From: Medicago truncatula
Taxonomy: Eukaryota; Streptophyta; Magnoliopsida; Fabales; Fabaceae
Direction of reading: 5' to 3'
Assembly: GCF_003473485.1 (NCBI RefSeq)
Contig: NC_053045.1
Coordinates: 3,560,501 to 3,624,500 of the forward strand
DNA: 64,000 nt
Positions within the stretch are counted from its first letter, which is position 1, and each line of letters begins with the position of its first letter. A program made the translations under genes and the position numbers. Positions 2,444-56,006 of this stretch are shown here, in pieces. The notes under the pieces were generated by a model. That model was not told where the DNA came from. It searched no databases and saw only the letters and a program-made list of their open reading frames with translations.

Positions 2444-4671
2444 TGTCGCACCATTTTTCGGAGGTCAAGGCCATTTGACTAGCGTTTGACTCACTTTTTA
2501 TATCACGACCGAACAAATTTTTTTTTTAAGGGGAAAACGTTCCAAACAACCCATTTTGAAAAGATTCAAGGTTCGGGGGTTGGTTATATTTAGGGAAGGT
2601 ATTAGCAACCTAAATATGCGTAGTACTCTACGAGAACCTCTTGATTTTATTTAACTTTTTGTGCTTAAACTTGCTTGCTTTTAAAGAGATGAAAATGGAA
2701 TTGAATGATGAGTTGAAAAAGAAAAGAAAATTGATTTTTATTGAAGAGGAAAAAAGAAAAATGTTTTTTTTAGTTGATTTGGAAGGACAAGATCCTCTGC
2801 CTACGTACCCGTGAGGGATCAAAACATCGTAGTTCGGGGTAGAAATTGACGTTTGATTTGTTTTTGTATTTTTTTAATTAGTTTTGAAAAAGGTTTTGAA
2901 ATAAAAAGCCAAGTGGCAAATGAGAATTGATTTGTGTTTTTTAGATTGAAAGAAATTGACTTGAAGTTGAATTAGAATTGATTTGAAATTTGATTAAGAA
3001 AACTAAAATAAAAAGACGGTCACTTGATTTAAGATCAAGGTTTATTGTGAAAAGTTCTTTTTATGAATTTTTGATATTTGAATGTTTTTGTTGTTTTTGA
3101 ATAATAACTGAAAATTAAACTAATAGAGCAATAAAAAATAAAAGTGTGTGGGTGTGAAGAAAAGATTGTTAGTTCAACAATATAAATAGTATTTAATATA
3201 TGTAGGACCAGAATATTCTGGAGAATGATTAAATTAAACAAAAATATAATATTAACAGTTAATTTAGGACCAGAGCACTCTGGATTAATTTAATTAACAA
3301 TGACCAGAGCACTCTGTATTAATTTAATTAACAAGGACCAGATTGTTCTGGAGAATAATTAAATTAAACAAAAATATAATATTAACAGTTAATATAGGAC
3401 CATAACACTCTGGATTAATTTAATTAACAAGGACCAGATTATTCTGAAGAATAATTAAATTAAACAAAAATATAATATTAAAAGTTAATTTAGGACCAGA
3501 GCACTCTGGATTAACAGATAGAGAGAGAATTAAAATGCATGAAAAAGAAATAATAAAAAAAAGAAATGAGATGCTGGGGGGTAAGCAAGAAATAAAGGGG
3601 GTGCAGGAATTAGAAGAAAGACAGATTGGGCTTAGGGAACAAATCTCGGCCGTTAATTTGATCAACGGCCTTGATTGGATCTGTTGAAGAAGAGGGGTAT
3701 AAATACCCATTTCTCTCTTTTTCCTTCATTTCTTTTATTCTTCTCTCTCTTCACTCTCTCTTTCTTTCACGTATTCTCTCTTTTCTCTCTTCTTATCTTC
3801 TCCTTCTTTCTTTTTTTCTGATGAAGTTTCCGGTGAGTGTTGAAGAACACCACCGTGAAACTCAGTTTCCGGCGCGGTGGCCGGCGAGTTGTCGCGGCGG
3901 CGCCACCGTGCCGGTAAAAAAAACTCCCCTTTTTAAAAAAAAAACGTTTTTAAAGACCTCTTCTTCTTCTCTTTTTGATTCTAGGTTCAAAACTTCTAAA
4001 ACAACCACTGTTTATCCTAGATCTAGAAAGAAAAAGAAAAATCTTTATACCTCTTTTACTTTGGATCTTGGTTCGATGGTTGTGGTGGTTTGGTGTTGGA
4101 TTTTGGTTGCTGGTTCTTGGTTAAAACATTGTGCGGAAATGATGATGAAAAATTGTGTTGTATTGATTCAGAAAACGATTGTGGTGCTATGTGATTTGCA
4201 GGTTTTGCAATTGAAATTCTGTGTTTTTTGTTGTGCTTGTAATGTCATATTTATAGAGCTTGGGATTAAGACAATTTTGTTGCTTGGAGAGGAACATGAC
4301 AGGCTGTTTTGTGCCTTGGAGAGGAAGCATGAGGCTTTGTGCCGTTTATTTGCATATTATCGGACGACATTTTAGTTTTATGGATATTAAAATAAACAAT
4401 AATAAAAGTAATAAATTAAAAATAGAAGGGCCAAAATAAAACAAAATGAGGTAAAAAGATAAAAACTTAAAACATATTTAAAATTAATAAAAGATGGAAA
4501 TTAATATTAAATGAAAAAAATGAAAATTGAGTGAAGAGGGCCCTACTCGGAATCAAATATGAGGTATTTTAAAATATATTTCTGTCGAATGTTTTGCTCG
4601 AAAGGTTGAGATCGGTCAGAGTTAAATGACACGTGTTGGTGCTGTCTTAGGTCAAAAATTGGGGTATGACA
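2444..4671 (-). mobile_element. Gypsy solo LTR (Ogre/Tat-like) with 5-bp TSD
   Basis: A TG...CA-bounded segment of 2228 bp, flanked on both sides by ACAAT (2439-2443 and 4672-4676). Minus-strand ends are TGTCATACCCC and GGTGCGACA. A second LTR of the same family lies at 46009-48029 in the other orientation, and a piece at 30713-31083. It has the block GGTTCGGGGGTTGG (2570-2583) and a GC-rich patch (3865-3915), both matched in the second copy. No gag-pol adjoins it, so it is a solo LTR from recombination. The clean duplication suggests moderate age. Confidence 0.85.
3207..3512. repeat. Tandem repeat within the gypsy LTR
   Basis: The unit, about 125-130 bp, contains GGACCAGAGCACTCTGG or a variant plus an AT-rich stretch (AATTAAATTAAAC, ATAATATTAACAGTTAAT) and is present about 2.5 times. 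CCAGA...TCTGG makes each unit partly palindromic. Such U3 tandem repeats are common in plant LTRs. Confidence 0.7.
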
Positions 4672-5096: not shown

Positions 5097-5148
5097 ATGT
5101 ATAGAAATCAATACGCGGGAGACGCCATGGAAGCAGTTAAGCAAGTTT

Positions 5149-6300
5149 AGCAGCAACAGATCTCCGATCCAAAACTCACGTGGTTCCCGCGTGTGTTAAC
5201 AAAGCCAATTCCGAATTATCTTCTCGTCAGAAGAAGATCTCGGAGATGTTTAGAAATCAATACCATACCGACGTAGCAACATGGTCACCGGCGGGAGGAC
5301 ACTTCCAGGTGGAATACGCCATGGAAGCGGAATACGCCATGGAAGCGGAATACGCCATGGAAGCAGTTAAGCAAGGTCCAGCAGCAACAGATCTCCGATC
5401 CAAAACTCACGTGGTTCCCGCGTGTGTTAACAAAGCCAATTCCGAATTATCTTCTCGTCAGAAGAAGATCTCGGAGATGTTTAGAAATCAATACCATACC
5501 GACATAGCAACATGGTCACCGGCGGGAGGACACTTCCAGGTGGAATACGCCATGGAAGCGGAATACGCCATGGAAGCGGAATACGCCATGGAAGCAGTTA
5601 AGCAAGGTCCAGCAGCAACAGATCTCCGATCCAAAACTCACGTGGTTCCCGCGTGTGTTAACAAAGCCAATTCCGAATTATCTTCTCGTCAGAAGAAGAT
5701 CTCGGAGATGTTTAGAAATCAATACCATACCGACATAGCAACATGGTCACCGGCGGGAGGACACTTCCAGGTGGAATACGCCATGGAAGCGGAATACGCC
5801 ATGGAAGCGGAATACGCCATGGAAGCAGTTAAGCAAGGTCCAGCAGCAACAGATCTCCGATCCAAAACTCACGTGGTTCCCGCGTGTGTTAACAAAGCCA
5901 ATTCCGAATTATCTTCTCGTCAGAAGAAGATCTCGGAGATGTTTAGAAATCAATACCATACCGACATAGCAACATGGTCACCGGCGGGAGGACACTTCCA
6001 GGTGGAATACGCCATGGAAGCGGAATACGCCATGGAAGCAGTTAAGCAAGGTCCAGCAGCAACAGATCTCCGATCCAAAACTCACGTGGTTCCCGCGTGT
6101 GTTAACAAAGCCAATTCCGAATTATCTTCTCGTCAGAAGAAGATATCGGAGATGTTTAGAAATCAATACCATACCGACGTAGCACCATGGAAGTGGAATA
6201 CGCCATGGAAGCGGAATACGCCATGGAAGCAGTTAAGCAAGGTCCAGCAGCAACAGATCTCCGATCAAAAACTCACTCAGCAGCAATAGGTCTCCGATCC
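5149..6300 (+). repeat. Higher-order exon repeat: 231-bp units with nested 18-bp units
   Basis: Start codons in identical context fall at 5246, 5477, 5708, 5939 and 6152, giving periods of 231, 231, 231 and 213 bp. Each unit fuses the last bases of the leader (CGGAG before ATG) to the end of codon ~60 (KKI), so junctions read ...[12 protein letters not shown]... and 77 codons stay in frame. Within a unit the 18-mer GAATACGCCATGGAAGCG (EYAMEA) occurs three times in units 1-3 and twice in units 4 and 5; loss of one 18-mer explains the 213-bp period. Units 2-4 look identical, while units 1 and 5 differ at a few bases and unit 5 has an internal deletion. All five array units read VVPACV where the body has VVLACV, so they descend from one variant copy. 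Confidence 0.95.
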
Positions 6301-7497
6301 AAAACTCACGTGGTTCTCGCGTGTGTTAACAAAGCCAATTCCGAATTATATTATCATCAGACGAAGATCTTCAAGATTGATGATCACATTGGGGTCGCCA
6401 TCGCTGGACATGGCCGTGTTCTTTCGCGGTACATGAGATCTGAATGCGTTAACTATAATTACACTTATGAATCTCCGCTTCCCGTTGGTCGTCTCGTTGT
6501 TCAGCTCGCCAATAAGGCTCAGGTTAGGTTACTCTCCGTTTTCCGTTTTTACCTCTGTTCGAATTATTAGAACTAGAACACTGCCGCACGGGTCTTTTAG
6601 AGTTGAATGTTATAATATTTTGACACGACTCGCATTGATGGTCAAATTTGGATTAGCATATGAGAGCTTCTCAATTAAAATACGTTTATTATTGTTCACC
6701 TGTGAAATAATCTTTGCACTTCCATCGTGTTTTTCAAGAAGATAAACAAGAGAATTTTCTAAAAAATTGAGATGCAGAAGACCCAGAAGTATATAAATGT
6801 GTGTGGAGAAGTTTGTTCAAACATAAAGACATCACTTTTGAGCTGTTATTTGTCATTACCTATTTTGTATACTTAATATGGAAGTAGAGAGACTGATGTG
6901 CAATATCTTTTCTTTCTTCACATAGTTTCATGCTTTCTATTTTCTAAACTTTGCTCAAGTGTAAATGTTGTGTTGATAGTGGAACTGTTTGTTGATTAAG
7001 ATATTTTATAATTCATGTGATAGAGACGGAGTTAGACTATGGTGTAGTTATTCAAATTGGGACTAATTTATGCACCCTAATTAATGTCAACGGAACTGCG
7101 TACTGATTTGTTACGATCCATTATGGATGTTCTAGGGGTGGACCTCATATTAATGGGAAAGTGAACTTTGATATCTTTACTTGCATTCTCTGTGGAGGCT
7201 TTGTAGGGGTGGACCTCATTGTAGTGGTCTATTGACTCTATAGGTATTCAATAAATTGCTGTGGCCTTTGTCGTGAGAGGCTGTTGGTTCAATTTCTTAT
7301 TGAAACTTCAACAGCTCATAACACAATTGATGCATGCTTAGAGAAATCCTGAAGGGTGCTAATATTTTTGTTCAAAACTTCATGTTATGCATCTCATTGT
7401 TGTTTTAGTTATTATCTCGTGTAAATCTACGCTGATGTGGCTGTCTTATGGTGTGAAGTGGAACACAAATTATTGTTCTTTTGATTCAATATAACTT

Positions 7498-7619
7498 GCT
7501 TGTAGAATAACTGGCTGAATAGGGTTCAGTTAATCTTGTGATTTGAAGTAATCAAATAGCTTGTAGAATAACTGTCTGAATAGGGTTCAGTTAATCTTGT
7601 GATTTGAAGTAATCAAATA
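7498..7619 (+). repeat. 61-bp tandem duplication in the PAF intron
   Basis: GCTTGTAGAATAACT at 7498 recurs at 7559, and the 61-bp copies differ at one visible base (GGCTG versus GTCTG). The rest of the 1496-bp intron is AT-rich and featureless. Confidence 0.9.
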
Positions 7620-8513
7620 AACAAGAAATCTGATTTGACTTTACTCTTATTGGGTTTAATGATATTTCAGTTGATAGAGTTGCAACATAAAGTGTTAACA
7701 ACACTTTTGGAAGGACCCCTCCCCTATTTTTGCTGTTTTTATATATAGTTAGTTACCATATGTGAACCTGATCTATTTAATTCATTCAATAAACTAAAAC
7801 ATTTGGTTAGTTAATCAAATGGTCTGCATTAATTTTATGATATATGTTTAAAATTGTGTTTTATTAATAGAAAGTTGGATAGGGTTATGGGGGGAAAAGT
7901 TTGTGTTTCTATTTTATCTTGCATATTACATGGAAAAGAATAAGGATTATCTGCAAAATTTATTAGAACTGAAATCTCTCTTGCTCACCAGTATTTATGA
8001 TGTAATTTTGAGTGGCAGGTTTGCACTCAGCGGTCATGGAAGCGTCCTTATGGCGTTGGTCTTCTTGTAGCTGGATTAGATGAATCAGAGGCTCACCTCT
8101 ATTACAACTGCCCAAGCGGAAACTATTTTGAATATCAGGCAGTTGCAATTGATTCACGCTCACAAGCTGCAAAGACATATTTGGAACGCAAATTTAACAA
8201 CTTCACAGCCTCCTCCCGGGAAGATCTGATCAAGGATGCACTCATTGCAACTAGGGAGTCCTTGCAAGGTGAAGAGCTCAGGAGCTCCGTATGCACCATT
8301 GCTGTGGTTGGAGTTGATGAGCCATTCCACATTTTGGATCAAGAAACTGTTCAACAATTGATTGATACTTTTGAGATTGTGAGGGAGGAAGAAGCTGCAC
8401 CTGCTGAACCTGAGGCTGCAGCTGAGCAGGATGCTGCCACGGATCAGGCTTCTGGTCCAGATCAAGGTGGTGCCCGAAACCAAGACCAAGGTGGTTCTCC
8501 AATGGGCATTTGA

Positions 8514-10080: not shown

Positions 10081-10749
10081 GGGATTATAGAACAAAACTA
10101 TGGGTGTTTGAGTTGTGAATATTCAATGCATGTCTGTTAGTTTTTCCGTGCATGGTCTGTAAGAGGAGAATTGCTGTTCCCACTTGTTGTTTGGCTGAGA
10201 AATACAAGTAAATTACGCAAATACCCTTCGGCAGTTAACTGCCGAGGAATTTGAAATCCGGCTGCAGTTAACTGCCGAGGAAAATGTTTCATCCCCCTAC
10301 ACACTATTTTCTTCATCACCTTCATTTCCACCTCCATTCAATCCCAAAATCCATTTTTTTTTGATCAATTTTTGATCCAAAATCATTCAAGCATCAAGCA
10401 TAGGAGGTATCAACACACTATTGACGTAAAAAAACAGGTATTGTGCATTTTATTTGATTGATTTTTTGGGTGTTTTAGGGGTATCTACGTCAGTTACGTA
10501 GAACCCTGTCATGGGAATCCTCGGCAGTTAACTGCCGAGGAAAACTTCGGTCGTTTAGTGCCGAGGAAAACCTCAGTAGTTAGGTACCGAGGAACTCTCG
10601 GTGAAAAATTTCACCACGAAAAAATGGCAGCTACTGCCAGATTTTCAAAAAAAAATTCTTTTGTTTTTTTTGTTTTAATTCATTATGGCATTGATGTTTA
10701 TACATTACTTAGTTGTTAATTCATATTTATGTGTTGTTTAATTATAGTA

Positions 10750-12549
10750 ATGGTAGAGAATGCAAAAGATGTTCCGGGAGAGACAAAACAAAATTTTGTC
10801 GAAAATTCCGGAGATGTCAAACCGCCTAATGTTGAAGCGAAAACAAACATAGATGGAGCTTCCATCCATGTTGAAGCTTCAAAGTATGTTGGCGGCTCCG
10901 GTGTACTCCCACTGCAACCCCACGAGGTCGACACGGCTAAGTCGAAAAATAGAGATGAATTGCTTGAGTGGGTGCATCGACAAGCAAATAAGGCGGGATT
11001 TACAATTGTCACACAAAGATCAAGTTTGATCAATCCAATGTTCCAGCTAGTGTGTGAAAGGAGTGGAACTCACATAGTTCCGAAAAAAAAACCAAAGCAT
11101 GCGAGAACGGGCTCAAGAAAATGCGATTGCTTATTCATGATTAGTGGATATCAAAGTAAGCAAACAAAGGAATGGGGATTGAACATTCTTAATGGAGTTC
11201 ACAACCATCCCATGGAGTTGGCTTTAGAAGGACACATTCTTGCCAGTAGATTAAAGGAGGACGACAAGAAGATTGTACGTGACTTGACAAAGAGCAAGAT
11301 GCTTCCAAGAAATATTTTGATACATTTGAAGAACCAAAGACCACATTGCATGATAAATGTGAAGCAAGTGTACAATGAACGTCAACAAATATGGAAGGCA
11401 AATAGGGGTGACAAGAAGCCGTTGCAATTTCTAATCTCGAAGTTGGAGGAGCACAACTATACTTATTACTCAAGAACACAACTTGAAAGTAATACTATTG
11501 AAGATATTTTTTGGGCTCATCCAACATCCATTAAGTTGTTTAACAATTTTCAAACGGTTTTGGTTATGGACTCCACGTACAAAACCAACATGTATAGGAT
11601 GCCAATGTTTGAGGTAGTTGGGGTGACTTCAACCGATTTGACATATTCGGTTGGGTTTGGATTTATGGCACATGAGAAAGAAGAAAACTTTGTTTGGGTT
11701 TTAAAAATTTTGCGTAAACTTCTTTCGTCAAAGATGAATATGCCTAAGGTGATTGTTACCGATAGGGATATGTCTTTGATGAAAGCGGTTGCACATGTTT
11801 TTCCGGAAAGTTATGCAATGAATTGTTATTTTCATGTGCAAGCTAATGTTAAACAAAGGTGTGTCTTGGATTGTAAATATCCTTTGGGCTTTAAAAAGGA
11901 TGGGAAAGAGGTGAGCAATCGCGATGTGGTGAAGAAGATAATGAAGGCATGGAAAGCTATGGTTGAATCGCCCACTCGACAGTTATATCCAAATGCATTA
12001 GTGGAGTTCAAAGATTCATGTAGTGATTTCCCAATTTTTGTAGATTATGTCATGACTACCTTGAATGAAGTGAAGGACAAAATTGTGAGGGCATGGACAG
12101 ACCATGTGTTGCATCTTGGTTGCAGGACCACAAATAGGGTCGAATCGGCCCATGCTTTGTTGAAGAAATACTTGGACAATAGTGTGGGTGATTTGGGTAC
12201 TTGTTGGGAGAAAATACATGACATGTTGTTGCTTCAGTTCACTTCTATACAAACATCCTTTGGTCAAAGCGTTTGCGTGTTGGAACATAGATTCAAAGAT
12301 GTCACTTTGTACTCGGGGTTAGGTGGTCATGTGTCTAGAAATGCTTTGGACAACATTGCTTTGGAAGAGACACGTTGTAGGGAAACATTGTGCATGGACA
12401 ATGACATTTGTGGTTGTGTTCAAAGGACATCTTATGGGCTACCATGTGCATGCGAAATTGCTACTAAACTCCTTCAAGAGAAGCCAATTTTATTGGATGA
12501 GATATACCACCATTTGGTTAGGTTATCTATGGGTGAAGAAAGTAATTAA
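10750..12549 (+). CDS. MULE transposase (FAR1-like), N-terminal part of a transposase-OTU protein
   Basis: Begins at ATG 10750 (MVENAKDV), just after a probable splice acceptor. Numbering from the open-frame start at 10729: a FAR1/WRKY-GCM1-type zinc-finger region near 105-160 (LVCERSG, RKCDCLF, HNH), then the MULE DDE core with D281 (VLVMDSTYKTN), D345 (VIVTDRDMS) and E472 (NRVESAHALLKKYL), and a SWIM-type cysteine cluster near the end (CGCVQRTSYGLPCAC). All three catalytic acidic residues are present. A single TAA at 12547-12549 closes the frame, yet the same frame stays open for 379 more codons into the OTU domain. In relatives I recall, transposase and OTU form one protein, so this stop probably splits a fusion gene. 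It would act in the nucleus on the terminal repeats. Confidence 0.9.
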   Translation: MVENAKDVPGETKQNFVENSGDVKPPNVEAKTNIDGASIHVEASKYVGGSGVLPLQPHEVDTAKSKNRDELLEWVHRQANKAGFTIVTQRSSLINPMFQLVCERSGTHIVPKKKPKHARTGSRKCDCLFMISGYQSKQTKEWGLNILNGVHNHPMELALEGHILASRLKEDDKKIVRDLTKSKMLPRNILIHLKNQRPHCMINVKQVYNERQQIWKANRGDKKPLQFLISKLEEHNYTYYSRTQLESNTIEDIFWAHPTSIKLFNNFQTVLVMDSTYKTNMYRMPMFEVVGVTSTDLTYSVGFGFMAHEKEENFVWVLKILRKLLSSKMNMPKVIVTDRDMSLMKAVAHVFPESYAMNCYFHVQANVKQRCVLDCKYPLGFKKDGKEVSNRDVVKKIMKAWKAMVESPTRQLYPNALVEFKDSCSDFPIFVDYVMTTLNEVKDKIVRAWTDHVLHLGCRTTNRVESAHALLKKYLDNSVGDLGTCWEKIHDMLLLQFTSIQTSFGQSVCVLEHRFKDVTLYSGLGGHVSRNALDNIALEETRCRETLCMDNDICGCVQRTSYGLPCACEIATKLLQEKPILLDEIYHHLVRLSMGEESN

Positions 12550-13689
12550 GTTGCTTTTTGTGTCGAGGTTGAGTTGAAGGCTATTGTAGAATGTCTAAAG
12601 AAACTCCCTTTCCAAATGAAGCTTGAGGTCAAAGAGGGTTTGCGGCAGTTGGCATTTCCTGAAACCACCTTGATGTCTCCACCACCACGAAAAGTACCAA
12701 CCAAGGGAGCAAAGAAAAAAGTCGACATTGCAAGGTCTAAAGGAAAAATTACATCGACTAGTCGGATCCCTTCTTCTTGGGAGGTTGTTGATTCCCAAAA
12801 TCCGGATAGCCAACCGTCACCATCACCAACAACATCATCATATAAAAGGAAAAAAGGTGCTCGTCTTGGTAAAACTTCACTTTCCCCACTTCCTCCACCT
12901 ACTCGGTATCCAAAGCCTAAGGCTATCCCGGTTATGCGTCCTATTGATTATATGCCACGCTTCATGCTTCCATTTATTGAAAAAGTGGTGGATGTTATCG
13001 ACGATGGACATTGCGGATTCCGGGCTATAGCCGAGTTCATGGGCTTGATCGGAAAAAATAATCTCATGATCCGTACACATCTTATTCAAGAGTTGATGGA
13101 TCATAGAGATGATTATGTTGAAGTATTTGCAGGTGAGGATCGTTATAACATTTTAAACGGATTACATCCTCCCACAAATACAAAAACTTGTGCACATCTT
13201 GTTGATAAGTGGTTGACTTTTCCGGACATGGGACACATTGTTGCTAATTATTACAAAATGTGTGTGGTGGTGTTGACAAATCTTGAAGTTGGAAACTCGG
13301 AATCGTTTTTCCCACTAAGAGGGTCACCACCGCCGGGTAATCAAAAAACTCTCATCTTGTGCCTTGGGGCAATTCCAAATCATTTTGTGCTTATTTCCTT
13401 GAAGAATGGTTGTCCACTACCTCCATCATCTACGGAGTGGCACAATCACAAGAAAGAAGATGCGGTGACTTGGGAAGATGAGTATTTGGATCAACATGAG
13501 TTGTTCCGAAAGCTCATGCTATTGAAAGTGGAAACAAACCGTCCAAACCACAAAAGGAGTCAAACAAAGCGGCGCCTATTTTGTTGGACACTCCCGAAAA
13601 ACCAAAGCAACAATTTGAACTTATTGCGGAAGATGAGAAAGATTCTATGTCACTTGATCTTCTCCAATCACTTGGTCTTTAATGAGTGA
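12550..13689 (+). CDS. OTU-like cysteine protease domain carried by the MULE
   Basis: In frame with the transposase; no ATG starts it (first is 12616). A basic, proline-rich linker (PPPRKVPTKGAKKK, SRIPSSWEVVDSQ) leads into an OTU fold: VIDDGHCGFRAIAEFMG supplies the Asp and nucleophile Cys (C147 counting from 12574), and AIPNHFVLISL the His (H270). OTU proteins cleave ubiquitin or ubiquitin-like conjugates; a role in protecting or regulating transposase is inference. After HELFRKLMLL (about 13525) this frame becomes basic, while the overlapping frame reads an acidic tail (LLDTPEKPK, DEKDSMSLDLLQSLGL) ending at 13682, suggesting a frameshift near 13,525. Confidence 0.85.
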   Translation, partial: VAFCVEVELKAIVECLKKLPFQMKLEVKEGLRQLAFPETTLMSPPPRKVPTKGAKKKVDIARSKGKITSTSRIPSSWEVVDSQNPDSQPSPSPTTSSYKRKKGARLGKTSLSPLPPPTRYPKPKAIPVMRPIDYMPRFMLPFIEKVVDVIDDGHCGFRAIAEFMGLIGKNNLMIRTHLIQELMDHRDDYVEVFAGEDRYNILNGLHPPTNTKTCAHLVDKWLTFPDMGHIVANYYKMCVVVLTNLEVGNSESFFPLRGSPPPGNQKTLILCLGAIPNHFVLISLKNGCPLPPSSTEWHNHKKEDAVTWEDEYLDQHELFRKLMLLKVETNRPNHKRSQTKRRLFCWTLPKNQSNNLNLLRKMRKILCHLIFSNHLVFNE

Positions 13690-15832: not shown

Positions 15833-15985
15833 TAATGAACCATGACATTGATTCAAATGTGTATAGTTATAACCTTTGGCAAAAGGGTACTTAATGAACC
15901 ATAACATTGATTCAAGTGTATATGATCATAACCTTTGGCAAAGGGGTGCTTAATGAATCATAGCATTGATTCAAGTCAAAGGAGT
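15833..15985 (+). repeat. 59-bp tandem repeat in the copia LTR
   Basis: Units start TAATGAACCATRACATTG at 15833, 15892 and 15951 (last partial), each with ATAACCTTTGGCAAA. The same array is in the LTR at 30.6 kb, so it belongs to the family. Confidence 0.85.
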
Positions 15986-18404
15986 GTTTTCTCTCATGTG
16001 AAGGGTCATATAATGCACTATAAATATTTGACATTTGGGCATTAATTTAGACACACAGAACAACAACATGAACAAAAATTTTGATACTTTAACAACATAA
16101 GATCTCCCTCATTCTCTTACTCTAAATCATCCATATATTAATTCTCTAATGCATGAGTGAATTACTAGAACTAGAGCTGTCAAAACGGGCGGCCCGGTCC
16201 GGCCCGGCTGGGTCAAGGGCTTTTAAGGGCCGGGCTAAAAAGCCTGGTTTGAATATGGGCTGCAAAAATAGAGCCCGAGCCCGGCCCTATACGGGCTAAC
16301 GGGCCAGCCCTGGCCCGTATTTTTTTCTTCCATTTTCCATTCTTTTAAGTACTGAACATACATAAATATGTCGGGCTAACGGGCTAGCCCAGGCCCGTAT
16401 CTGTATTTTTTTTCCTTCCCATTCTTTAAGGATTGAACATAATAACTTAAATATACACAAATAGTGAACAAAAGATAAATTAAGATTGATCCAATAGAAT
16501 AATAATTATCCATAGTAACATTAACACAAGTCACCAATTATCCAGAATGAAGATTCTAAATTCAAAATACTAATTATCCAGAATAAGTAATAACATAACA
16601 AAAGTTTTAATCCAAAAAGTCACTCCCAACAAAGTCACTTAATCTTCTTCAAGGTTCACAACATCCACAGTACTATTTGATGCTTGTCCACTTCCATGAG
16701 TTTCATCTTCTTGAACATCATTGTTCTCATCATATAATTCTACAAATTACAAAATTTGATTGTTAAATATAGAGATTAAAAAATCACTTCAGTATTGATA
16801 ACTAAAAATAAATCAATTACTGTGAGAATAAGTGATAACCATTGAACAAAAATCAATCATGAAATTCCAAGAATATGGCATACTAACTATCTAATCTAGC
16901 ATTCAAGATTTAAAGCAACAACAAAATGAGCAGATGCTTCCTTTCATCTAGGCTCAAATGGCTCATCTAGCACTATGCATGTGGATCAAATGAATTATCG
17001 GTCCTTGTGTATGACTTAATGAATTCACACATTCCTTGTTCTTTGAAATGTTTTGATTCATAAACTAAATTGTCATATAAGTTTTGATTCACAAATATCA
17101 GTTTATGCAATAGGTTCAGTTACTTTTCATTCATGAGTTTAACATCAAACTCATTTCAATCAGTTCTATTGACAATAATATAAACTATAAAACAATTGTA
17201 AAAATGATAGAACTATAAAAACCATACCTTCAAAACCATGTAACCAGCTACGTGCGCACAAGAGAGCCTGAACATAATCATCTTTCATTTAACTTCTATA
17301 CCTATTCACAACTCGGGCGCCAATACTAAACACAGATTCTGATGCCACCGTTGTTATTGGAATACTCAATATATCGCAAGCCATCCTTGCAAGATTTGGA
17401 CTTCTACGACTTCTTTCCTTCCAAAAAGCTAAGACATCAAATTCTTGAGATAGAGGCATCCACAACTCATCTAAATAAGTATCAAGTTCTGATTTTCCGG
17501 TGTTGTTACTTGATTGGCTTTCATATTCTTCAAATTCCTACAAATCATCCAACCTAACCAAGTTACAAAATATTCATACAAACAAAAACAAATAATTAAT
17601 AAAAGAATAAAATAAAGAAAGAATGTATGAACTTACATCATATGAAGATGATGTAATTCGAGTTCCTCCACCATAGCTAGGCTGGACTTGTGAAGAGCTT
17701 AGATTAGAAGGAATTCCATTCTTGATGTACTCGGAAAAAAGCTTCCCCAAAGTCATAACTTTTTTCAACTTCTCCTCACTAGTGAGTGGGTCAAGTTTTT
17801 CATAAGCAAATTTCAAAAAGTTAAACTTTTTGGTTGGATCAAGAACAGCCCCAACTGCCAAAACAACATTATAGTCACTCCAATACTTATCAAATTTCAC
17901 CTTCATACTTTCAGCCATTTTTTGAATTAAAAGATCTTCACTTGTCAAATAAGATCTTATGAGGCACTCAATCTTCCATATTTCACCAAAGTACAGATTT
18001 GATGTAGGATATGAAGAGCCAGATATCAAGTTTGTAATAGTGAAAAATGGCTTCAAAATCTCACACATTATTTCAGCCCTTCTCCACTCTTCACTTGTAG
18101 GACAACGCTTAAAATTTGAATCCCGTAAACTTAAGCTATAAAATGCACGACGATAAACAAGCGCACTCTGTAGCATTATAAAAGTGGAATTCCATCGAGT
18201 AACACAATCTAATCTCAATCCTATGGTTGTATCAATATCACCAACAGTTCTAACACATTCGGAAAAAAGTAGTGTTCTACTTTTTGTACATGACGCATTA
18301 AATGACTAGTTCCGCTTCCTGATTCACAAGTCAATAATTTGTGACACGCCTTGCATCTACATTTCTCTACTCCATCTACAATACCAACTTTCACAAGATA
18401 TAGC

Positions 18405-29429: not shown

Positions 29430-31611
29430 ATGCTGAAGCTAAATAAATGAAAACTGGGTAATTTGATAATGGAGTATATGACTTGCATGTTTAATCTCAT
29501 CTTATGAAGTTTGATTATGACATTCTTTTATGATCAAATTTTATTTTGCTATGTATGTTTAAATGCATTCAATGTATGATATATCTTGGCCAGATATAAG
29601 AGAAAAGTTGAAGTTCAAATTGAAATGCATGTTAAATATTGTTATAGCAAAGGTGTAATGACATAAAAGTTTGTGTATTATTACAATATACTCAATTGAC
29701 AAAAGTGTCATGGTTTGATGATAGTTGGTGAATACTATCAAGACTATATAAGTTGATCCATAGACATAGCTATGAGAATTCAAAATCAATGTGAAGAATT
29801 GAATATTGAAAGTTTATAAAAGTTAAAAATAAATCTTGCAATTATTTGACGAAATGATTGACAAGGATATGATGTCTTTGGAAATGATGTTGAACACATT
29901 GAAGACATCATTAGGGATGTGGTACAAGCCCAAATCTATTTGATCATCAATGGTGGAAACTCAACCCACACTTGAGTAGCATCAAGTCTTGGGTTCAATG
30001 GTGAAAGTACACTATTAGAGTGATTGAAGTACTTGATGATCGATAACATCCCAAGGGGTAAAAATACTTTGACCATAAGAAGAAAAGGGGTAGGATGAGG
30101 TTTTTCCTCTTAATGGACATATAGCATATATTTGCTGGAATGCATACTTATGGGGCATTCCCCATATAGTCTACCTATGTGAGAATGATGTTTGGCCGCT
30201 TCATTGAGTTCAAGGGCTTGACTCTTAACTTCTCATGAAAAGGATACATGGACACAAGGCCTTAACAAACGTGTCAATTTTACAAGTCTCTTTTATCAAT
30301 GGTACCGAGATTTAATGTGTAAGTTATGCACACTTGTTCTAATGGATAGTTGGTTCAAAGCTTTCCTACCATACTATTTGGGAACGAGCGAAAACTTAAT
30401 TTACTAAGTAATGGTTCAAATCGCGAGATACCATTATCTGAAGGCATGGAATTTCCGGATTTATGAGATTTAGTATTTTAAAAATGGTGGAGGATTGTTT
30501 GTGATTTCCAAAATAATGGAATCACTTTAGAACCAAAAGTTGTAACTCTTCATGAGAACCATCATATACATTGGAACATTATTATTTATTGATAGATAAT
30601 GAACCATGACATTGATTCAAATGTGTATGGTTATAACCTTTGGCAAAAGGGTGCTTAATGAACCATAACATTGATTTAAGTCGATATGATCATAACCTTT
30701 GACAAAGGGGTGTGTCATACCCCAAATTTTGATCATTTTTCTCTAATTTTACCCCTTTTATTCTTACTTTAAAAGCCAAGAAAGTTCGTCGTTCCAGACG
30801 AAATTTCGGCAGAGGTTACTTTGAAGTACCTCATTTGGTTCCAAAAGGGACAATTTTAATTTTGTTTATTATTATTCATTACACCTTTAGTAATTATTGT
30901 TATTTCCTTTTTTCTTTTTATTAGTTAATTCATGTTTCCTTTTTATTACTTTTCTTATGATCTCTTTACTTCCCTTTTGTCACTCACGTGACATGTTTTC
31001 TTTTTCTTTAACATTTCAATTGTTTTAAATTTTAGTCCGTGAACACAGCTTGCCAAGCTTCCTCTCCAAGCCTCAAAATAAAGGGGTGTTTTCTCTCATG
31101 TGAAGGGTCATATAATGCACTATAAATATTTGATATTTGGGCATTAATTTAGACAAACAGAACAACAACATGAACAAAATTTTTGTTACTTTAACAACAT
31201 AAGATCTCCCTCATTCTCTTACTCTAAATCATCCATTAATTCTCTAATGCATGAGTGAGTTACTGGAAACATAAATCTGTAAAATACTGTTAGGAGATAC
31301 GGTTGGTGTGGTTGTGCAATACACATCAATGAACTCATAGTATCCTAAAGGAGATTCGCTGTTCATTCCTATTGCATCCAATATTCAGTTATTGGTGGGG
31401 GAGAATCGAACCTAAAGGTTAGTGTGACAATCCCATGCGCTTTGAGTTTTGCATGCATAATAATTAAACTTTTCAGGTTTCAAGTGCAACACAATCTTCC
31501 CAACAATCAAGATATACAACATTCTTTGGAATTTATGTGCACACTTTATCATGTTCATCTTCATCATCTTCTTGGTCAAGTTATTGCAGCAGATCCCCAA
31601 CACAGGTTCCA
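29430..31611 (+). mobile_element. Copia-type element 3' part: internal tail, purine tract, 3' LTR
   Basis: The LTR starts TGTTTGTGATTTCC at 30496, directly after the purine tract GGTGGAGGAT, and ends about 31611 (GGTTCCA). It matches the LTR at 15711-22066 including the 59-bp array. The 1 kb upstream is probably the internal 3' end, without a long frame. The LTR contains a 371-bp gypsy LTR piece and keeps the uninterrupted site (near 31260) that in the sister copy holds the hAT. Old fossil, many breaks. Confidence 0.65.
30713..31083 (+). mobile_element. Gypsy LTR piece inserted in the copia LTR
   Basis: Starts TGTCATACCCC like the solo LTR at 2444-4671 and keeps the family 5' blocks (GGTACTTC-like near 30820, CTCTCCAAG near 31064). 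GGGTG lies at both ends (30708-30712, 31084-31088). It is much shorter than the 2.0-2.2 kb relatives, so it is internally reduced. Confidence 0.65.
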
Positions 31612-54830: not shown

Positions 54831-55718
54831 TCATTCATTCTCAACCCTATCATCATCACCATCACCATCACCATCACCAAGATTAAGACCCATCATAATC
54901 TCAACCAAAACATTAGGATCATTATAATTCCGAACAGCTTGAACAATACCCTTAACACGTTTAAAACAATCCTCATAACCAAAAACCTCTGCTCCCACAA
55001 ACACACCATGACAACCCAACTGCATCATCAACGCCGCGTCCGCGGGAGTCACAATCCCACCGGCAGCAAAATGCACAACAGGTAATCTACCCATCTGTTT
55101 CGTCTGCGCAACAATATCATAAGGCGCTTGAATTCTCTTCGAAAACGTGAAAACTTCATCGTCATCCATATTACTAAGCACTCTCAATTCTTTCATCAAA
55201 CACCTTACATGCATTACAGTTTTCGCAATGTTACCTGAATTTTTCACCTCTCCTTGAATCCTTATCATCGCTGCACCTTCTCTGATTCTACAGAGCGCTT
55301 CACCGAGATTACTTGCGGAGCTTATAAAAGGTGTTCGGAAATTGTGTTTGTTGATGTGATTCTGATCATCGGCGATGGTGAGAGATTCGTTTTCGTCGAT
55401 GTAATCAACGCCGGTGGCTTCGAGGATTTGAGCTTCGACGAAATGGCCGATTCTGACGGGGGAGATGACTGGGATTGAAACGGAGCGTTTGATGGATTTG
55501 ATGAGGGAAGGATCGGTCATGCGTTGTTGATCGGAGACGGTGACGGCGCAGGCGCCGGCTTGTTCAGCGATTTTGGCTTGGTGGAGGTTGGTGACCTGGA
55601 AAATTGCGCCGCCACGGAGGGTTTGTGTGAGGGATAGTTTGAATGAGTATGGGGTTTGGAGTGGGTCGGTGGTGATTGCGGTGGTGTTGTAGACTGTGAC
55701 GGTGGTGTCTTGTGCCAT
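54831..55718 (-). CDS. PDX1.2: Pyridoxal 5'-phosphate synthase-like subunit PDX1.2
   Basis: Single exon, 295 residues from ATG 55718 (MAQDTTVTVYNTT). The PdxS/SNZ barrel is evident: LTQTLRGGAIFQVTNLHQAK, GACAVTVSD, RIGHFVEAQILEATGVDYID, HNFRTPFISSASNLGEAL, REGAAMIRIQGE, NMDDDEVFTF, AAGGIVTPADAALMMQLGC and NDPNVLVEI. The two catalytic lysines of active PDX1 enzymes are replaced: P87 in ISPVRIGHF (active MAKARIGHF) and Q155 in IRIQGE (active IRTKGE). This defines the PDX1.2 pseudoenzyme, which joins PDX1.1/PDX1.3 in dodecamers and stimulates vitamin B6 synthesis under heat. VSDQQRMTDPSLI is several residues shorter than the usual VSDPQR...MPDPSLI loop, and the tail is a Gly-Asp run encoded by a CACCAT repeat. 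A small MULE lies 290 bp upstream. Confidence 0.93.
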   Translation of the reverse strand: MAQDTTVTVYNTTAITTDPLQTPYSFKLSLTQTLRGGAIFQVTNLHQAKIAEQAGACAVTVSDQQRMTDPSLIKSIKRSVSIPVISPVRIGHFVEAQILEATGVDYIDENESLTIADDQNHINKHNFRTPFISSASNLGEALCRIREGAAMIRIQGEVKNSGNIAKTVMHVRCLMKELRVLSNMDDDEVFTFSKRIQAPYDIVAQTKQMGRLPVVHFAAGGIVTPADAALMMQLGCHGVFVGAEVFGYEDCFKRVKGIVQAVRNYNDPNVLVEIMMGLNLGDGDGDGDDDRVENE

Positions 55719-56006
55719 TGGGAACAAGGTGTTTGTGAAAATGCGTAGCAGAAGAGTGTAGTGAAATTAATTGTTGAAATGCGTAGGTGAAAAGTGATGC
55801 ATGGAATTGCTTGGTGATGGGAAATAAGTATACTGAGAAGAGAAGAATCTAGAATGTTTGAGAATGGGTTCTGGAAAATTCGAATTTGAACAAAAAGAAG
55901 GTTTGAATGAGTTGGAATGGTTCATGATGTGTAAAGGTTTGATTCTGTTTTTCTGATGGAATATGGTGAAAATTTGAGACACACTTGTGGATTTTGAGAA
56001 AGTTAT

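Follow-up and report, generated by a model that had tools for sequence, protein, structure and literature searches.

A putatively degenerate 20S proteasome alpha-subunit gene with a tandemly repeated first exon in Medicago truncatula

Does a proteasome alpha-subunit gene in which part of the first exon has been repeated in tandem still encode a proteasome subunit? This question is raised by a locus lying in a 64,000-nucleotide stretch of Medicago truncatula DNA (NC_053045.1, positions 3,560,501 to 3,624,500 of the forward strand), which was analyzed as a whole and is referred to below as the window (34.3% GC, zero N). A first-pass annotation, made from the letters alone, had described the locus as an in-frame tandem amplification of exon 1 in a PAF-like proteasome gene. 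Judging from the sequence features presented below, the locus is probably a degenerate copy of a gene for the plant 20S proteasome alpha subunit PAF, in which exon 1 has turned into a minisatellite.

Organization of the repeated exon and of the proteasome body

Tandem Repeats Finder identified an array at positions 5115–6190, with a period of 231, 4.7 copies and 96% matches, as well as 18-bp arrays (GGAATACGCCATGGAAGC, coding for EYAMEA) nested within the units and amounting to three, three, three and two copies, which confirms the two-level structure described in the first-pass annotation. The repeated stretch extends from just 5' of the ATG through the codons for KKI and corresponds to the start of a PAF-like exon 1. 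At positions 5246–6151, four copies are arranged head to tail, three of 231 bp and one of 213 bp, with a damaged unit at either edge (Table 1). The existence of the array was therefore borne out, whereas the five copies of exon 1 previously counted have to be replaced by four open units and two damaged edge units. The ATGs of the units coincide with the unit starts given in Table 1, and are spaced from U0 to U5 by 149, 231, 231, 231, and 213 bases.

The near-identity that had been claimed for the middle units holds: over 231 bp, U1 and U2 differ by one base, U2 and U3 by none, and U1 and U3 by one. U4 differs from the U1–U3 type in one substitution and in carrying one 18-bp EYAMEA copy fewer, and the longest exact repeat measures 535 bp. 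According to the alignment, U0 has lost 81 nt relative to a unit with three EYAMEA copies, plus another 1 nt. The units thus lie head to tail within an exon and are similar enough for recombination, as in an exonic minisatellite, and variation in their number among individuals is plausible. A 24-base unit tag gave six matches in the window as compared with none in 100 shuffles; since it matches only these six known places, neither a further copy nor an intact parent gene was found in the window.

Table 1. Coordinates of the repeat units and of the proteasome body (positions within the window)
Feature	Positions	Strand	Evidence or remarks
U0, damaged first unit, 149 bp	5097–5245	+	ATG at 5097, stop at 5148–5150 after 17 codons
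U1, full unit, 231 bp, EYAMEA x3	5246–5476	+	PF10584, 33.2 bits; match with spinach 7qve_m
U2, full unit, 231 bp, EYAMEA x3	5477–5707	+	Tandem-repeat call, unit comparison
U3, full unit, 231 bp, EYAMEA x3, identical to U2	5708–5938	+	Tandem-repeat call, unit comparison
U4, unit of 213 bp, EYAMEA x2	5939–6151	+	Tandem-repeat call, alignment
U5 and remainder of exon 1	6152–6522	+	40 nt lost after the U5 start; array stop at 6287–6289
33-bp partial repeat, meeting point of array-type and body-type sequence	6245–6309	+	Tandem Repeats Finder, period 33, 2.0 copies, 90%; alignment
Proteasome body frame, exon 1 part	6187–6522	+	PF00227, 61.7 bits; GLTADGR with H in place of LTAD at about 6409
Intron placed by homology	6523–8018	+	Donor CAG/GTTAGG, acceptor GGCAG/G
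Exon 2, open through its stop	8019–8513	+	PF00227, 73.5 bits

Among proteins of solved structure, the body matches the spinach alpha subunit 7qve_m best (E 5.1e-111), and U1 also matches residues 1–63 of this chain (E 3e-21). Since body and unit both match this chain, the assignment of the exon to a PAF-like alpha subunit in the first-pass annotation is upheld. In the case of animal relatives, the PAF-type subunit is named alpha type-1 in the PDB. Taken alone, U1 scores 33.2 bits against PF10584, the alpha N-terminal signature, for which the Pfam cutoff is 27.7; the entire array scores 97.6 bits, and four stretches individually pass E 1. The array also matched 18 other Pfam families at E up to 1, five of which exceeded their cutoff (VP17_central_barrel, TADA2A-like_3rd, Hap4_Hap_bind, DUF1934, and HSF_DNA-bind). 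Since no stretch passes alone in any of these five cases, they were read as summed weak matches of the repeated units and rejected. Both the PF10584 signature and the PF00227 domain are present at the locus, with scores lower than those of the spinach and mouse proteins, and the GLTADGR motif common to the latter two is not intact, the body reading GHGR. The fact that the intron has been kept argues against a processed copy. A 61-bp tandem duplication (98% matches) is present in this intron at positions 7498–7619. None of the 44 pattern-matching stretches in prokaryote genome contigs and none of the four in viral contigs were confirmed as relatives of the 164-aa exon 2 protein.

Several other features were observed in the window. 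A compound tandem array at 3204–3514, with periods of 34, 96, and 130, is built on AGGACCAGA..CTCTGGATTAATT and lies on the 5' side of the proteasome gene, at a distance of about 1.6 kb, and a run of 27 G occupies positions 1246–1272. A MULE transposase frame (10729–12546, + strand; PF10551, 92.5 bits) is followed on its 3' side by a 371-residue frame (12574–13686, + strand) giving no Pfam match at E 0.001, and a fragment of a hAT-like transposase is located at 17577–18218 on the - strand (PF14372, 96.7 bits). Two short arrays about 15 kb apart, at 15833–15976 and 30597–30712, share a 59-bp tandem unit (TAATGAACCATAACATTGATTCAA...). Lastly, an intact PDX1-like frame occurs at 54834–55727 on the - strand (SOR_SNZ, 249 bits), in which, as judged by eye, the two catalytic PDX1 lysines are replaced, presumably as in the non-catalytic PDX1.2 type.

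Reading frames and sequence divergence

The ATGs at 5097, 5246, and 6187 belong to three different frames. The first of these frames meets a stop at 5148 after 17 codons. The second runs over 347 codons to a stop at 6287, within exon 1, the length of 369 codons reported earlier being reached only when the count starts at a GTG at 5180 instead of at the first ATG of the frame. The third, that of the body, starts at 6187, continues into exon 2 and ends with a stop at 8511, giving 276 codons. The PF10584 units lie in the frame of 5246 and the PF00227 domain in that of 6187, and no single open reading frame holds both: translation of the exon, with the single intron positioned by homology, yields either the 17-codon peptide or a 347-codon array protein lacking the proteasome core. 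The frames of 5246 and 6187 rule out an in-frame fusion between the array and the body, and the claim that the amplification is in frame with the proteasome gene had to be abandoned, since the array is in frame only among its own units and the core lies in another frame.

In the alignment, the break between the array frame and the body frame corresponds to the 40-nt loss in U5: the absence of these 40 nt from the last unit puts the core in the third frame. This loss can be modelled as a deletion between two CATGG copies, with U5 differing from the modelled outcome at two more bases. The locus thus shows the stops at 5148 and 6287 and the frame change ahead of the body that are to be expected of a pseudogene. 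The array stop is located 236 nt 5' of the exon junction. A stop this far upstream of an exon junction makes a transcript a candidate for nonsense-mediated decay, and a transcript of the locus would be such a candidate. The length of the open frame was not accepted as evidence of coding, since the period of 231 is divisible by three and the unit copied is open; starting with one open unit and a period that is a multiple of three, every added copy would automatically be open.

The array and the body were compared over the 93 nt of exon 1 of which the body retains its own copy. Eight substitutions were found, all eight of which change the amino acid; the probability of this outcome is 0.06–0.11 without constraint, depending on which of three transition weights is used, versus 2e-6 to 9e-6 at an omega of 0.1. 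Relative to spinach, five changes occurred on the array side (S to P, I to T, G to D, L to P, and H to R) and two on the body side (S to Y twice), the remaining site being assignable to neither side (K or T, spinach R). At the signature residues, the array unit differs from spinach by D7H, R18G, and L19H, and PF10584 gives 54.9 bits in spinach versus 33.2 in U1. The first part of PF00227 scores 61.7 bits in the body, 87.0 in spinach, and 77.7 in mouse, and the second part 73.5, 90.4, and 85.7, respectively, although the mouse protein is a more distant subunit; the gap in the first part is due partly to four profile positions left uncovered because of the 33-bp repeat, the match starting at profile position 5. 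Spinach and mouse share the same residue in 100 columns, 14 of which show a change or a gap in the body, a figure for which these two proteins, and no close functional relative, served as references.

Some results run counter to simple decay. All 164 codons of exon 2 are open, and the core shows no indel relative to spinach. At a neutral divergence of 4%, the probability of its staying open is 0.11 if indels are included and 0.44 with substitutions only. The length changes are multiples of three in six out of eight cases (P 0.02) when the U0 losses are counted as two (27 and 18 nt), and in five out of seven (P about 0.045, calculated by hand) when the U0 loss is counted as one of 81 nt; when the U0 and 33-nt changes are removed from the test, P is 0.21. 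These multiples of three suggest that the locus was translated during part of its history. The observations bearing on neutrality are that all the substitutions in the 93 nt compared change an amino acid, and yet exon 2 is fully open. The open state of exon 2 and the fact that most length changes are multiples of three lend modest support to the idea that the frame was probably lost late.

Origin of the array and alternative explanations

What the locus most likely represents is a young pseudogene, recently broken, which would carry an exonic minisatellite homogenized in its middle part. As far as can be judged by eye, the unit join linking the KKI codons to the bases just 5' of the ATG shows hardly any overlap, which suggests that the first duplication may have occurred by illegitimate joining. 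The array would then have grown and been homogenized by unequal crossing over or gene conversion. These processes leave a uniform middle and diverged edges; in the present array, the middle units are near-uniform and the two edge units carry damage. The locus is predicted no longer to make a normal alpha subunit, which should come from another PAF gene elsewhere, and it is most likely not a new kind of proteasome.

Continued production of a proteasome subunit by the locus is very unlikely, be it by splicing within the array past the frame break or by translation of the body from the ATG at 6187 without the N-terminal gate peptide. Enumeration of single introns (GT..AG, 60 nt or longer) linking a unit ATG to the body gave 677 open paths, 374 of which combine the MFRNQY start with the AAIGL core, but open paths as numerous as these are expected in a repeat and hence do not constitute evidence; in addition, the best of the 677 agrees with the consensus at 5 of 11 positions, versus 8 of 11 in the case of the gene's own intron. 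The case for a rescue of the frame by splicing is therefore weak. Translation of the body would benefit from the A at -3 and the G at +4 of the ATG at 6187, which make a good start context, and from the open exon 2, but 22 ATGs lie ahead of this start and the Pfam scores of the body are lower than those of mouse and spinach. We regard as very unlikely the translation of the array as a new 347-residue repeat protein without a proteasome core. The frame is indeed open from 5246 to 6287, PF10584 is recognized in four stretches, and the 17-codon first frame is so short that reinitiation might occur; but an open frame is the automatic result of repeating one open unit at a period divisible by three, decay of the mRNA is to be expected from the position of the stop relative to the exon junction, the changes hit signature residues, and U1–U3, with 1, 0, and 1 differences, are too similar for a selection test.

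Tandem repeats are a known cause of assembly errors (PMC6868369); U2 and U3 are identical, and the longest exact repeat, of 535 bp, exceeds short reads. However, U0, U1, U4, and U5 each have differences of their own, so that the array must exist and doubt is limited to the number of U2/U3-type copies; we give very little credence to the idea that assembly has produced an artefactual unit count. Only slightly more credit can be given to the possibility that the array grew while being translated, and that alleles without the 40-nt loss, or transcripts spliced past it, encode an alpha subunit whose N-terminus is extended by signature units, variable in number, at the entry-controlling face of the ring. 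If this were true, the locus would provide a natural test of the tolerance of the alpha ring to extra N-terminal sequences of variable length. If the locus is the ordinary decayed copy that we favor, it would constitute a clear record of the birth of a minisatellite in a coding exon, its center uniform and its edges decaying, and would caution against taking a long open frame created by a repeat as evidence for a protein.

Comparison with known systems

The locus belongs by its sequence to the same family as the plant PAF subunit (spinach 7qve chain m), with which 164 of 206 aligned core residues are identical, but differs from it by the repeated exon 1, two frame breaks, the loss of LTAD, and the 33-bp partial repeat before the core. 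In Arabidopsis, this subunit is encoded by PAF1 (At5g42790) and PAF2 (At1g47250), and PAF2 is described as undetected in wild-type single-capped 20S proteasomes and as having a low abundance in rpn10-2 (PMC11546751). The existence of a little-used second PAF copy in Arabidopsis is no evidence about Medicago truncatula.

Tandem units of similar size are present in coding exons of human duplicated genes, where variable internal tandem repeats with units of 63–228 bp have been described (PMC2812944). Among the exon changes of this size, nine are in frame and four out of frame, seven frameshifting cases are all located in the last coding exon, and the expansion is attributed to slippage or unequal crossover (PMC2812944). 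As compared with the human minisatellites described there, the present array occurs in a plant, in a first exon preceding an intron, and has a 231-bp unit.

The literature titles and abstract openings searched, in which subscription papers are mostly not included, contained no description of a proteasome gene with a tandemly repeated exon 1. Duplicated (unprocessed) plant pseudogenes keep their intron and show frame breaks and early stops. The present locus likewise has a retained intron, frame breaks, and early stops, and differs from these pseudogenes by the homogenized tandem array inside its first exon.
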